DNA from: Marinobacter sp. CHS3-4
Lineage (GTDB): Bacteria > Pseudomonadota > Gammaproteobacteria > Pseudomonadales > Oleiphilaceae
Length of the DNA stretch: 64,000 nt
Reading direction: 5' to 3'
Assembly: GCF_030053415.1 (NCBI RefSeq)
Contig: NZ_JASGBJ010000002.1
Span: forward strand, 124,001 to 188,000
Shown here piece by piece: positions 38,836 through 47,573 of the stretch; position 1 is the first letter of the stretch; each line of letters begins with the position of its first letter. The notes under the pieces were generated by a model that was not told the origin of the DNA, searched no databases, and saw nothing but the letters and a program-made list of their open reading frames with translations. The position numbers and the translations under genes were made by a program.

Positions 38836-39357
38836 ATGATGCGTTTACTAGTTGCTCTCGTTATCACAGTCGTTGCTTTGTCTGCTCATGCTGGCAAGCA
38901 CACTATGAAGGCTAATGCCGATCTCATTGGTAATTCAGGAGATGTAATCGGCGAGGCTCATCTGATGCAAGGACCACATGGCGTTTTGATTCATGTTCGG
39001 GTCACTGGATTGGAACCTGGCAAGCATGGACTCCATCTTCATAGCCACGGCGACTGTCTGCCGGAAACTGGCTTTAAATCTGCGCAGGGGCATGTAGGAA
39101 AAGTAAAAGATGCTCACGGGCTGATGAATCCAAAAGGGCCGGAACCGGGTGATCTGCCCAATATCTTCGTAGGCGCAGACGGTGTTGGCGAAATGGAGGC
39201 GTTTACGTCGCTCGTATCGTTGAAAGGCGGTAAGCATGGGCTGCTGGATGAAGATGGTTCGACGTTTATCATTCATCAGAACGCCGATGACCACATCACA
39301 CAACCGATCGGTGGCGCTGGCCCACGAGTTGCGTGCGGTACGATTCGTGCGAATTGA
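38836..39357 (+). CDS. sodC: Cu/Zn superoxide dismutase with an altered zinc ligand
   Basis: 173 residues with a signal peptide (about 1-19). Copper ligands His67 and His69 (GLHLH), bridging His86 and His147 are present, as are the disulfide cysteines Cys74 and Cys167 and the ending GGAGPRVACGTI. The zinc site has His86, His94 and Asp106, but the third histidine (HxGDL in the family) is Glu103 in GPEPGDL. The enzyme removes superoxide in the periplasm. The change may weaken zinc binding. GGAG precedes the tandem ATGs. Confidence 0.88.
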   Translation: MMRLLVALVITVVALSAHAGKHTMKANADLIGNSGDVIGEAHLMQGPHGVLIHVRVTGLEPGKHGLHLHSHGDCLPETGFKSAQGHVGKVKDAHGLMNPKGPEPGDLPNIFVGADGVGEMEAFTSLVSLKGGKHGLLDEDGSTFIIHQNADDHITQPIGGAGPRVACGTIRAN

Positions 39358-41565: not shown

Positions 41566-42039
41566 TCACAGGGTTTTCTGCAACTTCTGACTGTACCGCC
41601 TGAGCTTCCGAGTGGTTTCAGCCCAGTCGTCTTCTCCCACAAGATCCGTAAACTCCTTGTGAGCCTCTTCCCATTTAATCAAAGCCTCAGAATAGATTTC
41701 TTCACCCTCAGCCGTAAGTGACAGCCCAAGCGACCGTTTGTTGCCGGTGGGCTTGGTCTGCAGCAAGCCTTTCGATATCAGTTTTTCGACCGTACGCTGG
41801 AGCGATGTACGCTCCATGCCAAGCAGCTCCGCCAGCTCGTTGATCGAGTTTGGCGGGTAGAGTTTGATCGCATTCAGAATCGAAAATTGAGTAATGCGAA
41901 GCCCGGTTTCTGCCAGCTTGTTGTTGTAATGGCGGGTGACCAGCCTGGAAAAAACCCGCGAGTAAAGCGCCGCACATGTTTTCCCGATATCCAGAGGGGA
42001 GATCAGATCTGCATTCAGTGCATCCGACATAAAATTCAT
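41566..42039 (-). CDS. MarR-family transcriptional regulator
   Basis: 157 residues with a central winged helix-turn-helix (about 60-100: SINELAELLGMERTSLQRTVEKL, then KPTGNKRSLGLSLT as wing). A palindrome, GTGTATATACAC, lies only 12 bases before its ATG, so autorepression is likely. The same palindrome stands before the divergent hydrolase and again before the transporter operon. MarR proteins typically release DNA on binding phenolic or lipophilic ligands. Ligand unknown. AAAGAGG precedes the ATG. Confidence 0.9.
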   Translation of the reverse strand: MNFMSDALNADLISPLDIGKTCAALYSRVFSRLVTRHYNNKLAETGLRITQFSILNAIKLYPPNSINELAELLGMERTSLQRTVEKLISKGLLQTKPTGNKRSLGLSLTAEGEEIYSEALIKWEEAHKEFTDLVGEDDWAETTRKLRRYSQKLQKTL

Positions 42040-42048
42040 GGCCTCTTT

Positions 42049-42064
42049 AGGTGTATATACACTT
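42049..42064. promoter_or_regulatory. MarR operator 1 (upstream of marR)
   Basis: Contains GTGTATATACAC with right arm ACACTT (AGGTGTATATACACTT). It ends ten bases before the marR ATG, the place for autorepression. Confidence 0.75.
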
Positions 42065-42135: not shown

Positions 42136-42163
42136 TTGCCTTTTTACTTGAAGTGTATATACA
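42136..42163 (+). promoter_or_regulatory. Promoter of the alpha/beta-hydrolase gene, overlapped by operator 2
   Basis: TTGCCT (42136-42141) and TATACA (42158-42163) are 16 bases apart. The -10 box lies inside the MarR palindrome, so a bound repressor would block RNA polymerase. Confidence 0.55.
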
Positions 42164-42166
42164 CTT
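42151..42166. promoter_or_regulatory. MarR operator 2 (upstream of the hydrolase)
   Basis: AAGTGTATATACACTT is a perfect 16-base palindrome. It is the best copy of the three and lies about 55 bases before the hydrolase start. Confidence 0.8.
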
Positions 42167-42221: not shown

Positions 42222-43067
42222 GTGATGACATTCTCAATGAAGCTGTTCAGATTCTCGTTCGGCACATACAGTCGGGCGCTGCCCGCCAAAGCTGCCCAAA
42301 AAGCGGTTGGTTTGATGACAAGCCCCCGCATCAGTGAAGAAAAGCGGAACGCTGTCAGGGCGCAGTTTAACTACAGCACGGCGCTGAAGCGGGGCGGGAC
42401 GCTGTCTGTTTACGGGCAGGGGTCGAAAAGCATCTTGCTGCTGCACGGCTGGTCAGGTTGGGTTGGGCAGTTTTCGGATCTGCTGAACCAGCTCGACCCT
42501 GCTGAGTACACCATCCTTGCGGTCAACCCGATGGGGCACGGCGATTCCTACGCTAATGAGTCTCACCCAGGGCGTTTTATTGAGGCTGTTCTCGATACCT
42601 ATGAGTTCATTGGAAAAAACATTGATGTAGCCATCGGTCACTCCCTCGGATCAGCCGCGCTGGTATACGTACAGGCGGTCAAGCAATGCTTTAATCGCCT
42701 TGCCCTGGTTTCCGGGCCTGCCTCCATCGAAGGAGTTCTCAACCGCTTCGCTTCGTTTTTGGATCTGGGCGAAAGCAGTAGGGACATCTTCATCCGAAAG
42801 ATGGAGGGCAAGGTCGGTCTGACCATCGACCAACTAGACCTGGTTAAGCTTGCCCCTTCGATCAAGCAACCGGTTCTGCTGTTTCACGATCGCGATGACA
42901 GAGAGATTCCAGCAAGCGATTCTCACGAGCTGGATAAAGCGTTTCCAAGAAGCCGTCTCGTCGAAACTCGGGAAAACGGTCATAACCGGATCCTGAAAGA
43001 TGACATTGTCATCACCGAAATTCTGGAATTCCTCGGCCCCGTTCAAGAGGTGCGGAAAGCGTCCTGA
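42222..43067 (+). CDS. Alpha/beta-fold hydrolase
   Basis: 281 residues, GTG start at 42222 or the next codon ATG at 42225; GGAGG at 42211-42215 serves either. Fold elements: LLLHGWSGW (oxyanion), nucleophile elbow GHSLGS (Ser141), acid in HDRDDREIP, and catalytic His in ENGHNRIL. Substrate unknown, perhaps an ester or lipid given the locus. It is transcribed alone, since a terminator follows, and is controlled by MarR operator 2. Confidence 0.85.
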   Translation: MMTFSMKLFRFSFGTYSRALPAKAAQKAVGLMTSPRISEEKRNAVRAQFNYSTALKRGGTLSVYGQGSKSILLLHGWSGWVGQFSDLLNQLDPAEYTILAVNPMGHGDSYANESHPGRFIEAVLDTYEFIGKNIDVAIGHSLGSAALVYVQAVKQCFNRLALVSGPASIEGVLNRFASFLDLGESSRDIFIRKMEGKVGLTIDQLDLVKLAPSIKQPVLLFHDRDDREIPASDSHELDKAFPRSRLVETRENGHNRILKDDIVITEILEFLGPVQEVRKAS

Positions 43068-43121: not shown

Positions 43122-43136
43122 AGTGTATATACACTT
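43122..43136. promoter_or_regulatory. MarR operator 3 (upstream of the RND-LolA fusion)
   Basis: AGTGTATATACACTT lies 11 bases before the ATG of the transporter and next to its GGGAGGAG ribosome-binding site. Being so close, a bound repressor would block the start of transcription or elongation. Confidence 0.78.
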
Positions 43137-43147
43137 AGGGAGGAGCA

Positions 43148-46100
43148 ATGGCTCAGGAAATTTCCACGCATGGGGAACGGCACACGCGTGCTTATGGCTT
43201 CTTCTTGCGCGTAATCCAGTTGCGCTGGCTAACACTTATTACGGCGCTGTTTATGGTGGTCGGCCTCGGAAGTCAGCTCGGAACGCTGAAAAAGAATACC
43301 CAGGCGGATGCATTTATCGATGAAAACGAGCCTGCACTGGTGTACCGGAAAGCTGTCGAGCGCATTTTTAACCTTAAGGACCCCCTTGTGCTTGCTGTCG
43401 CCAACAGCGGCGAGAAGGGCATCTACAACCGGGAAAGCCTTGAACTGGTGCGCTGGCTGACCAATGCCCTGGCCTCTGTTGAAAATATTGATCCTCAGGG
43501 GATTACGAGCCTCGCCACGGAAAGCAATATTGAGGGCGATACGTTTGGCATGGAGGTTCGAGAATTCCTTGATGGCCCCCTGAGCGACGCGCACATCGCC
43601 TGGATAAAAAACGGCATCAGACATTTCCCCCTCTATGAGGGCAGTCTGGTTGCTGCAGACGGCTCAATGACGCTTGTTATCGCCGAACTGTTGGACCAAG
43701 AGCAGGCAGAAGCTACCTATCAGGCCGTCACTACCTTAATAGAACAGGCACCCACTGGGTCGAACGACGTTCATGTAGCAGGAGAGGGTGCCGTAGTCGG
43801 GTTTTTATCAGAGTACATCGACCGAGACGCCAAGAGACTGAATCCTCTTGCGGCACTCATCATCACTGCTGTTCTGGTCGTTGCGTTTTTTTCCTTACGA
43901 GCTGCTTTGATCCCCAACTTGATTGTGCTGGGGACCGTTGCTGTGACACTTGGCGCGATGGCCTCCAGCGGCACTGAGTTTTTCGTCATCACCAATGGAC
44001 TCATTGTTTGCATGATTGGCATTGCCGTGGCGGACTCCATTCATATTTTTTCCGAGTATTACGAAACGCAGGCAGCCGATCCTTCCTTGCAGCGCGCCGA
44101 TGCGATTGCGATTTCGATGGCCAGAATCTGGCGTCCCGTCACGCTGACGACGCTAACCACGGCAGCGGGTTTCCTTGCGCTTTACCCCACAAACGACATG
44201 CCGCCCATGCAATTCTTTGGAGTGTTTGGCGCATTTGCCGTGTTTGTCGCCGGAATTCTCAGTTTGTTCGTCACGCCCTCACTGCTTTCCTTCGTCAAAC
44301 TGAAGCCCAGTCGTGCTTTCAAGCATCAGAGTAATCAGCGTCAGAGCCGTGGAATCTTGAAGGTCCTGTCCCATGTCGCGCTGGAGCATCCCAGGAAGGT
44401 TCTGGGTGGCGGAATGTTGGTAGCCGCAATTTCCTTGGTTGGCGCGACAAAGGTCATTGTGAATGAGGAACGGATTGAAAATTTCCAGCCATATGAAGCG
44501 ATTTACGTGGCTGACAAGGCCATCAATCGGGCTATGGACGGTACTTATTTCCTGGATGTGGTGATTGAAACGCCTGAAGCTGAAGGAATATATGACCCTG
44601 GCGTTCTTTCAAAAATCAATGAGCTACAAACATTCCTCGAACAACAAACTGAAGTACATGGCACGACGTCCATCGTTGATTACATCAAGCAGATGCACAA
44701 AGCCGTCAATGAAGACGACGCCCGGTTCTATTCCTTGCCGGACGACAAGAACCTGATTGCCCAATTGTTTCTTCTTTATACTGCTTCTGGTGATCCAACC
44801 GATTTCGAGGAGCGGGTGGATTCTCAGCGCCAGACTGCTCTTGTTAGGGCCAGCCTGAAAGAAGGTTCTTATCTGCTGTCTCAATCCCTGGTTCCGAAAC
44901 TTGAGCGCTATCTGCAATCCCAGTTTAACGGTGAAGTCACGGCGCAGATCAGTGGTCGAATCAACGTAGACTATCACTGGATTGGCGGTATTGCCGAAAC
45001 CCATCTGAACAGCGTGATCGTCTCTTTTGTGGCCGTATTTTTGATGGCGGCACTGCTTTTCCGATCCATCGTCGGCGCCTTGATGGCTGGCATACCCGTC
45101 GGTCTTTCAATCCTGGTGATTTACGGTGTAATGGGACTGAAGGGAATCTGGCTGGGCGTCGGCACATCCATGTTCGCCGCTATCGCCATCGGCCTGAGTG
45201 TCGATTTCGCCATCCACACCATTGAGCGCCTCAAACAACTCTCGCCCCAGAGTACTGACGCGTCGATGAAACAGCAGATCGCCGGTCTGTTTATGTCCAC
45301 TGGCAGGGCTCTCTGGTTCAATCTTCTGGCGGTTGCTTTGGGCTTTGGCGTGTTGATGACCAGCAAGGTCCCGCCACTGATCAATTTTGGAGCTCTGGTG
45401 GCACTGGCCGTATCGATCGCATTCCTCGCCAGTTTGCTGGTGCTTCCTGCAATCGTTTACATCTTCAAACCGCGATTTATATTCAATCCAAATGGCAGTT
45501 TCTGGAAAACCAGCCTCATCCTTGTAGCAATCCTTCTCGTAGGGACGCTCGCCAAAACGGCCGTTGCGTCAGAGGAAGCGCCTGAGGTTGGACAGATCAT
45601 CGAGCAAATGAATACTCGGCCGGAGGGGACTTCGGTTCAGCGAGATATGAAGATCACGCTCACGGATAGTCGCGGGAGCGTTCGCGAAGAGCAAACTCGC
45701 GCCTTTCGTCGCTACTTTGGCGAGACCAAGAAAACCGTCATCTTTTACACAAAGCCGGGCACGGTCGCGGGCACCGCATTTTTGACCTGGGATTATGCAG
45801 AGTCACAGAGGGACGATGACCAGTGGCTCTACCTCCCCGCACTACGGAAAGTACGCCGCATCTCGGCTTCCGACCGTGGGGATTACTTCCTCGGCACGGA
45901 CTTTACGTATGAGGAGATCAAAAAGGAGAGCAAGATCGCTGCGGAGGACTATCGCTTCTCCCTTCTGGGTGAAGCGCAGGTCGACGGCCATCACACCTGG
46001 AAAGTGGAGGCCACACCGGTTTCCGCGGAAGTCAGCAATGCTCTGGGTTATGGAAAGGTGGTGCTGTGGATCGATTCGACAGTTTGGATCCCCAGAAAGA

Positions 46101-46309
46101 ACGAGTACTGGGACGTCAACGGGAATTTCCTGAAGACCGTCTACGCCCGAAACATCGAAAACATTGATGGCATCTGGGCGGTAAGCGAACTTGAAGCGGT
46201 GAACCAGAAAACGGGTCACAGCACCCGCATCCAATTCGAGAACACGGATTACGGAGCTGAAGTACCTGCTCGCTTGTTCGAACAACATGCGTTGAAGCGG
46301 GGGTATTGA
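43148..46309 (+). CDS. MMPL/RND-family exporter fused to a LolA-like lipoprotein-sorting domain
   Basis: 1053 residues. Residues 1 to ~785 are a HpnN/MMPL-type transporter: two halves with a large periplasmic loop and about six membrane helices each, including AVADSIHIF and GLSVDFAIH in the repeated helix 4 region. Residues ~785-807 form a hydrophobic stretch ending KTAVA that looks like a retained signal peptide. Residues 808-1053 match the LolA-like outer-membrane lipoprotein-sorting family: WLYLPALRKVRRIS, GTDFTYEEIKKES, NGNFLKTVYARNI. In most relatives, as I recall, these are separate proteins. It probably exports a hydrophobic substrate across the inner membrane and hands it to the periplasmic domain. 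It is the first gene of the operon. Confidence 0.88.
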   Translation: MAQEISTHGERHTRAYGFFLRVIQLRWLTLITALFMVVGLGSQLGTLKKNTQADAFIDENEPALVYRKAVERIFNLKDPLVLAVANSGEKGIYNRESLELVRWLTNALASVENIDPQGITSLATESNIEGDTFGMEVREFLDGPLSDAHIAWIKNGIRHFPLYEGSLVAADGSMTLVIAELLDQEQAEATYQAVTTLIEQAPTGSNDVHVAGEGAVVGFLSEYIDRDAKRLNPLAALIITAVLVVAFFSLRAALIPNLIVLGTVAVTLGAMASSGTEFFVITNGLIVCMIGIAVADSIHIFSEYYETQAADPSLQRADAIAISMARIWRPVTLTTLTTAAGFLALYPTNDMPPMQFFGVFGAFAVFVAGILSLFVTPSLLSFVKLKPSRAFKHQSNQRQSRGILKVLSHVALEHPRKVLGGGMLVAAISLVGATKVIVNEERIENFQPYEAIYVADKAINRAMDGTYFLDVVIETPEAEGIYDPGVLSKINELQTFLEQQTEVHGTTSIVDYIKQMHKAVNEDDARFYSLPDDKNLIAQLFLLYTASGDPTDFEERVDSQRQTALVRASLKEGSYLLSQSLVPKLERYLQSQFNGEVTAQISGRINVDYHWIGGIAETHLNSVIVSFVAVFLMAALLFRSIVGALMAGIPVGLSILVIYGVMGLKGIWLGVGTSMFAAIAIGLSVDFAIHTIERLKQLSPQSTDASMKQQIAGLFMSTGRALWFNLLAVALGFGVLMTSKVPPLINFGALVALAVSIAFLASLLVLPAIVYIFKPRFIFNPNGSFWKTSLILVAILLVGTLAKTAVASEEAPEVGQIIEQMNTRPEGTSVQRDMKITLTDSRGSVREEQTRAFRRYFGETKKTVIFYTKPGTVAGTAFLTWDYAESQRDDDQWLYLPALRKVRRISASDRGDYFLGTDFTYEEIKKESKIAAEDYRFSLLGEAQVDGHHTWKVEATPVSAEVSNALGYGKVVLWIDSTVWIPRKNEYWDVNGNFLKTVYARNIENIDGIWAVSELEAVNQKTGHSTRIQFENTDYGAEVPARLFEQHALKRGY

Positions 46310-46310
46310 A

Positions 46311-47573
46311 ATGAAACGCTTCACTCAAGTTATCGCCCTCGTAAATTTGATTGGTATCGGTCCGTTCGCTAGCGCGATGGATCTGGAGCATGCGTCTCTT
46401 GTGAGCTTCGAGAGTGCCTATACTCATGAATCTGGCACCTGGCAGAAACAGGAACTGATCTGGCGGCCAGAGTGGACTGCCCGGTTTAACTCGGGTGCCC
46501 GTCTCACACTGTTGGGAGAAGCACGCATGGATGCAGAGGATAATCTTGATCCAGGCCAGCCACGGCAGCCCTTTAGGGCAGGGCTCACTCGTAAGAACTT
46601 CCCCGATGACCGTATCGACCTGGAGCTCAGAGAACTCTATCTGGATCATTACCTGGCGGACACCTATCTCCGAGTGGGTAAACAGCAGATTGTCTGGGGC
46701 CAGGCAGATGGCTTGAGAGTGCTGGATGTGATCAACCCATTGAGCTACCGCGAGTTCATCTTGCCCGACATCGAGCATCGCAGAATCCCTCTGTGGTCTG
46801 CGCTGGCGGAAATTCCAGTCGAGGAATGGACGGCGCAAATTGTCTGGATTCCCGACGCCACGGTCACCGAAAGCCCGCTGCCGGGAGCATCCTATTCCGT
46901 CATTCCAGACCCTTTTGGCAAGGGCAGGTTAACGGTGGATCGCCCGGAATCACTTGAGCAGAGCGATGTTGGTTTCAGGCTATCGAGCTTTCAGAAGGGA
47001 TGGGATCTGACGCTGAATTATCTGTACCACACCATTGATGATCCGCTGATCCGTTTCGATTCCGCAGAGCGAAGGGTCCTCGCAAGCTACAACCGTTCAC
47101 ACCTCATTGGAGCCACTGCCTCAAAACCCTTCGGCAGTATGACGTTGCGCTCTGAAATCGGGGTCGAGACCGAAAAACGATTTTTCGATACCGCCTCAGG
47201 GAATGTCATTGAGTCTGAGGTTGCATCTTATGTCCTTGGCCTGGATTTCAGTGGCTTCGCCGACTGGTTTATCAGCGGCCAGCTGTTTCAAACCCACCGT
47301 TTCAACCACCTGAGCGGCACCGAACGCTCCAGTGAAATGGTGACATTGCTGTTACGTCGGGATGCTTTTAACAACGCGCTTCAGCTGGAGGCGTTGAGCA
47401 TCTATGACGTAGACGTTAAGGATTCATTGATACAGCTGGAAGCGGAATACACCGCTGCAACCAACGTGGTCATCCGGGCGGGCTCTGACCTCTTCTTTGG
47501 AGAGCGAAGCGGCACTTTTGGCCAGTTCCGGGATGAAAGCCGGATTACAGCCGGCTTCACCCTGAGTTTTTAA
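46311..47573 (+). CDS. DUF1302-like outer-membrane beta-barrel protein
   Basis: 420 residues with a signal peptide (about 1-22) and alternating beta-strand pattern ending in TAGFTLSF with terminal Phe. The motif LRVGKQQIVWGQADGLRVLDVINPLSYREF is typical of DUF1302 barrels, which often accompany MMPL transporters and LolA-like proteins. It starts one base after the fusion's stop codon, so coupled expression is likely. It is the best candidate for the outer-membrane end of this export system. Confidence 0.85.
   Translation: MKRFTQVIALVNLIGIGPFASAMDLEHASLVSFESAYTHESGTWQKQELIWRPEWTARFNSGARLTLLGEARMDAEDNLDPGQPRQPFRAGLTRKNFPDDRIDLELRELYLDHYLADTYLRVGKQQIVWGQADGLRVLDVINPLSYREFILPDIEHRRIPLWSALAEIPVEEWTAQIVWIPDATVTESPLPGASYSVIPDPFGKGRLTVDRPESLEQSDVGFRLSSFQKGWDLTLNYLYHTIDDPLIRFDSAERRVLASYNRSHLIGATASKPFGSMTLRSEIGVETEKRFFDTASGNVIESEVASYVLGLDFSGFADWFISGQLFQTHRFNHLSGTERSSEMVTLLLRRDAFNNALQLEALSIYDVDVKDSLIQLEAEYTAATNVVIRAGSDLFFGERSGTFGQFRDESRITAGFTLSF

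Follow-up and report, generated by a model that had tools for sequence, protein, structure and literature searches.

Recurrent fusion of an MMPL/RND exporter to a LolA-like carrier through a conserved, predicted signal peptidase I site

Introduction

A single gene of Marinobacter sp. CHS3-4 joins a membrane exporter to a LolA-like domain, and the question that this locus raises is whether the product works as one tethered machine or is cut into two proteins. The gene lies in a stretch of 64,000 nucleotides (contig NZ_JASGBJ010000002.1, positions 124,001 to 188,000), here called the window, to whose numbering all of its coordinates refer. The original prediction, made from the DNA alone, held that a separately exported LolA-like protein had been welded to an MMPL transporter, that its signal peptide had become a relic serving as a thirteenth helix, and that the LolA-like domain was thereby placed at the exit of the pump. 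In the rhizobial FbcH cytochrome b/c1 polyprotein, a bacterial membrane protein is fused to a signal-peptide-bearing partner and the product is cut by signal peptidase. Our searches of open-licence PMC papers found no report of a LolA-like + MMPL/RND fusion, or of the cleavage of one.

Results

A single intact gene encodes an exporter and a LolA-like carrier

An ORF check of the window gave 1053 uninterrupted codons at 43148..46309 on the + strand. A Pfam profile search matched both of the halves that had been proposed, an MMPL exporter in residues 1-785 and a LolA-like domain in residues 808-1053. The exporter part proper, residues 1-779 (43148..45484, +), carries a duplicated MMPL match (PF03176, two stretches, E 4e-31, 108.5 bits against a cut-off of 20.5); the TIGR00921 and HpnN models also matched it, both below cut-off. 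Hydropathy and the helices of an AlphaFold2 model assigned it 12 membrane helices and two large loops on the periplasmic side, and the hydropathy profile contained, besides the expected exporter helices, one further hydrophobic segment that ends in AVA at residues 805-807, exactly where it had been described. Among 20 fused proteins, the acidic residue D296 in TM4 is nearly invariant and D686 in TM10 is invariant; by analogy with MmpL3, the two are candidate proton-relay residues. The carrier part, residues 808-1053 (45569..46306, +; 246 residues after the predicted cleavage), matched the LolA_like family (PF17131) at residues 860-1051 (E 6e-57, 192.6 bits against a cut-off of 30), and a weaker DUF1329 match overlapped the same region. 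Within its own genome the fused protein gave eight matches, and the carrier part was covered by this gene alone.

When the entire protein was searched against 124 genus genomes (E <= 1e-75), 14 carried a relative, in every case a fused one. The eight nearest genus orthologues are 63-74% identical to the window protein, and one of those eight genomes is assembled as a single contig. Across the order, 34 of 293 genomes had a match at E <= 1e-60 and 16 of the 293 carried a fused gene, which was also found in 19 of 80 named loci (the best 80 of 593 stretches), a count that leaves out L116, whose exporter and carrier ORFs overlap but are out of frame with each other. Since a fused ORF of similar length recurs across the genus, the order and the named loci, and since the ORF itself is intact, a frameshift or assembly error at the fusion was ruled out, and the MMPL exporter-LolA_like fusion at 43148..46309 was confirmed as genuine. 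A search with the carrier domain alone gave a match in 31 of 97 related genomes, and 11 of the 49 matches listed sit in frames of more than 1000 aa. In the phylum, PF17131 was found in 112 of 299 genomes and, among the matches listed, a frame of more than 1000 aa occurred only in the window; by this survey the fusion is therefore a minority form, and most lineages keep two genes. Three genomes of the order (G447, G534 and G540) have the split genes side by side, with exporters 50-52% identical to that of the window. Because such split pairs survive among close relatives, we concluded that the fused gene originated from two separate genes, in agreement with the proposal that the carrier was once encoded on its own. 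The genus also contains two Acinetobacter-type fused proteins (L047, 3236-6436, and L048, 3285-6497), with GWSA|EQ at the join. Two database hits (H21 and H22), recorded as "Acinetobacter phage MD-2021a", matched 95% of the length of the exporter-carrier query and are probably bacterial DNA within a phage record.

Fusion has occurred more than once

A tree was built by a quick method from 94 non-redundant systems (40 fused and 54 split), which remained of 59 fused and 96 split entries after removal of duplicates and of entries cut by a locus end; 46 carrier entries with no exporter found upstream were omitted. On this tree, which has six long end branches and 27 rows of odd composition, the fused/split label changes at least seven times, and five of the changes are forced by well-supported branches. 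A single origin of the fusion was rejected by an AU test (p 5.8e-6) run on 39 of the 94 rows, chosen by hand, with no mixture model. The Acinetobacter baumannii fusion (L053) and the window fusion fall in different parts of the tree, by which the former is independent of the latter.

Many split pairs share a reading frame, with a stop-to-start gap of 6-18 nt (for example L098, L196, L054, L185 and L188), and the loss of one stop codon would therefore fuse them. The pair in L054 is located on a Pseudoalteromonas plasmid, with a gap of 12 nt, beside a gamma-mobile-trio element. The abundance of pairs one stop codon from fusion, together with the repeated changes of label, would suit a neutral explanation, in which recent or recurrent stop-codon loss between in-frame neighbours produced the join and the motif found there reflects shared history without consequence. 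We consider this very unlikely, as all 14 carriers among the 124 genus genomes are fused and, in an all-fused clade whose branches are long and whose linker varies greatly, the alanine that would precede the cut is nonetheless kept in every row (see below).

The fused gene belongs to a three-part module

One nucleotide past the stop codon of the fused gene starts a gene for a DUF1302 protein (46311..47573, +; PF06980, E 8e-8), a probable outer-membrane barrel and the third component of the system. A DUF1302 relative was present in 72 of the 80 named loci (again the best 80 of 593 stretches), in the orders exporter-carrier-barrel, carrier-exporter-barrel and carrier-barrel-exporter, and a Haliovirga entry from the plasmid collection had the order barrel-exporter-carrier. 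Hosts of the module include Gamma-, Alpha- and Zetaproteobacteria, Bacteroidota, Campylobacterota, Spirochaetota, Fibrobacterota and Fusobacteriota. Judged by gene content and order, the window system belongs to a widespread MMPL + LolA_like + DUF1302 module, here in a form with one gene fewer.

The structural model of the carrier (pLDDT 92) has as its nearest solved structure 9tp6, LolA3 of Porphyromonas gingivalis (34% identity, TM-score 0.9), so that profile and fold agree on LolA_like membership. The fold, the name of family PF17131 and the presence of solved LolA structures further down the match list could suggest a carrier that is LolA in the strict sense, a lipoprotein chaperone for which the pump replaces LolCDE. 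We regard that reading as extremely improbable. A classical chaperone would be close in fold and would have LolCDE and LolB as partners, whereas TM-scores to classical LolA were ~0.4-0.5, against 0.9 to LolA3, and the carrier's regular neighbours are MMPL and DUF1302 proteins. Moreover, P. gingivalis LolA3 hardly binds LolB and is without the conserved arginine, according to the part of the report cited here (PMC13103446), and the cited part of a second report describes no observed phenotype for a lolA3 deletion in Flavobacterium johnsoniae (PMC11885536).

The join retains a predicted signal peptidase I site

Exporter and carrier are connected by a putative internal signal peptide, residues 783-807 (45494..45568, +), ending in AVA at the predicted signal peptidase I site AVA807|S808 (codons 805-807, 45560..45568, +). 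An A-x-A motif is present in nine of nine genus orthologues, the window included, with V, F, S or N as the middle residue. We defined a strict site as A/V/S/T-x-A with no P at +1 and polar sequence after it, sought after the hydrophobic core, and we used TM1 and TM7 as controls, which run in the same direction as the join segment and likewise precede periplasmic domains. A strict site followed the join in 30 of the 40 non-redundant fused proteins, compared with a mean of 13.9 and a maximum of 24 in 2000 shuffles, the mean marking the specificity of the rule as modest. In the same 40 proteins it followed TM1 in three and TM7 in three, both below the shuffled expectation of about 8; TM7 of the split relatives was followed by one in 12 of 54, against 8.7 by shuffling. 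The genuine signal peptides of the split relatives had a strict site in 30 of 54, and the fused joins are therefore no worse. Under a looser rule (any A/V/S/T-x-A up to the start of the domain) the counts were 37 of 40 fused and 37 of 54 split, and the median distance from site to domain was 7 residues in fused and 6 in split proteins. A matrix trained on the split signal peptides gave fused joins a median of 6.7 versus 8.2 for the split ones (p 0.16) and placed them above TM1 and TM7 (2.9 and 2.2; p 7e-8), although in several rows matrix and strict rule picked different sites.

The deep all-fused clade provided a closer view, in a MAFFT alignment of 20 rows for which the motif was not named beforehand. 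Alanine occupies -1 in 20 of 20, and no other column is invariant from the exporter's last helix to the carrier; position -3 is small or aliphatic (A in 10, V in 6), and positions -2, -4 and -5 are highly variable. An internal -3/-1 site of the signal peptidase I type has been conserved after fusion, with L047 and L048 as exceptions. A relic signal peptide predicts a decayed cleavage motif and, since the motif is intact, the description of this segment as a relic is not supported.

In the original prediction, an uncleaved thirteenth helix holds the LolA-like domain at the periplasmic exit of the pump. Such a tether would be consistent with the character of the fused segments, whose median hydrophobic run (17.5, versus 14 in free signal peptides) and 19-mer hydrophobicity (2.01 versus 1.74) are closer to those of TM1 and TM7 (runs of 17 and 18; 2.19 and 2.07); longer and more hydrophobic segments could slow cleavage. 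L047 and L048, which have no canonical site under the strict or the loose rule, may by their sequences be truly tethered. For the family as a whole we judge tethering to be unlikely. Since the signal peptidase I motif was conserved after fusion, release of the carrier is the likelier outcome: strict sites are enriched at the join and rare after TM1 and TM7 of the same proteins, and the one residue that stays fixed while the rest of the join varies is the -1 alanine. AlphaFold2 recovered the exporter helices and the carrier fold and left residues 782-812 unstructured (pLDDT <50) with no thirteenth helix, a result that also speaks against a tether but weighs little, because the 20-row alignment used for this model of the fused protein is shallow and gappy at the join. 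Two elements of the earlier picture survive: a hydrophobic piece could remain on the exporter's C-terminus after cleavage, and the LolA-like domain would lie in the periplasm. The conserved motif argues against that piece as an anchor for the carrier, and against tethering of the domain at the pump exit. As the cut exporter may keep the signal peptide as its thirteenth helix, what chiefly separates the two readings is the freedom of the carrier. Internal re-initiation was rejected as a general source of free carrier, as a candidate start that is in frame and accompanied by a Shine-Dalgarno-like stretch was found at the join in only five of the 40 fused genes and not in that of the window.

Neighbouring genes and a candidate operator

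Profile matches identified an alpha/beta hydrolase as the first gene of a probable operon (42222..43067, +) and a divergent MarR-family regulator (41566..42039, -). An ORF of similar size occupies the hydrolase position in L039 and L040, and an alpha/beta hydrolase also lies beside the module in L042. A palindrome, AGTGTATATACACTT, occurs with one mismatch at 42050..42064 (+) and exactly at 42152..42166 (+) and 43122..43136 (+), the last copy just ahead of the fused gene. Searched at <=2 mismatches across the 3.7-Mb genome, it occurs nowhere outside these three places, and L039 has two copies at equivalent places. The three palindromes are probable operators of the MarR protein, which would then control both the hydrolase and the fused gene. 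At 38836-39357 the window has a gene that resembles Cu-Zn superoxide dismutases and comes near the SodCCaul model, below its cut-off.

Discussion

The fusion, its recurrence, the three-part module and the conservation of the cleavage motif, all directly observed, are consistent with a polyprotein in which exporter and carrier are co-synthesised and signal peptidase I is predicted to cut after Ala807 (AVA|SEE); on the sequence evidence we consider this quite likely. Specifically, residues 1-779 would form a 12-helix MMPL/RND exporter with its own C-terminus in the cytoplasm, residues ~783-807 would act as an internal signal peptide that engages the Sec machinery again, and the rest of the chain would pass into the periplasm. 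A cut after Ala807 would free a 246-residue periplasmic LolA_like carrier, just the product for which relatives with two genes have a separate ORF. The exporter may then load a hydrophobic substrate, possibly lipid- or lipopeptide-like, onto the carrier, which would hand it to the DUF1302 barrel encoded by the next gene. With synthesis as a single chain, the two parts would be supplied 1:1 and the carrier would be set free next to its pump. In its general form, that an RND exporter and its carrier were fused several times independently (Marinobacter-type and Acinetobacter-type lineages among them) around a live internal signal peptide with a built-in 1:1 supply, the proposal also appears likely.

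The closest functional context comes from A. baumannii, where L053 (5374-9024) encodes Polyketide_cyc2, MMPL and LolA_like domains as one chain in a lipopeptide cluster. We matched this cluster to the published A1S_0112-0119 lipopeptide operon by gene order and by the ORF sizes of 0117-0119; the ORFs after the fused gene have 424, 621 and 255 aa, and the sizes given in the cited part of PMC5376624 are 424, 621 and 254. As in the window, A1S_0116/A1S_0117 of the lipopeptide Ac-505 operon comprise a fused MMPL + LolA_like protein followed by a barrel-like protein, and a site, SHA|DE, is retained at the join. Unlike the window protein, to which it is 25.8% identical, the A. baumannii protein has an extra N-terminal Polyketide_cyc2 (SRPBCC) domain. 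Loss of a1s_0116 impaired surface motility and pellicles, and the cited parts of these reports describe an RND pump with no mention of the LolA-like part (PMC7997844, PMC11002903). In G935, an ORF that starts like the Polyketide_cyc2 domain is a separate small gene (L236, 1498-1941) between an ORF that we judged by sequence to be NRPS-like and a fused exporter-carrier gene. By analogy, the A. baumannii and G935 contexts hint at amphiphilic products.

Split MMPL + LolA_like pairs, such as P. gingivalis PG1175-81, comprise the same two families as two genes, the carrier having its own N-terminal signal peptide. In P. gingivalis and Prevotella intermedia, MMPL/LolA-like operons containing both genes rise under iron limitation, according to the cited part of PMC10434189. 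LolA3 (PGN0947, 9tp6) and the carrier of the PG1175-81 operon served as separate comparisons, and we do not assume that they are identical. The HAE RND lipid exporters HpnN and MmpL3 share the MMPL family with the window exporter, and the cited part of PMC8277102 does not mention a C-terminal LolA-like part in them.

To our knowledge, few bacterial polyproteins are cut by signal peptidase at an internal signal. FbcH is likewise a polyprotein cut by signal peptidase and differs in being part of a respiratory complex. If the proposal holds, a second, periplasmic protein would be hidden in many genes now annotated as one MMPL transporter, the exporter gene of the A. baumannii lipopeptide operon among them. 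The MMPL + LolA_like + DUF1302 module would then be a candidate route from inner to outer membrane for hydrophobic products across many phyla, for which the fusion reveals which carrier pairs with which pump.
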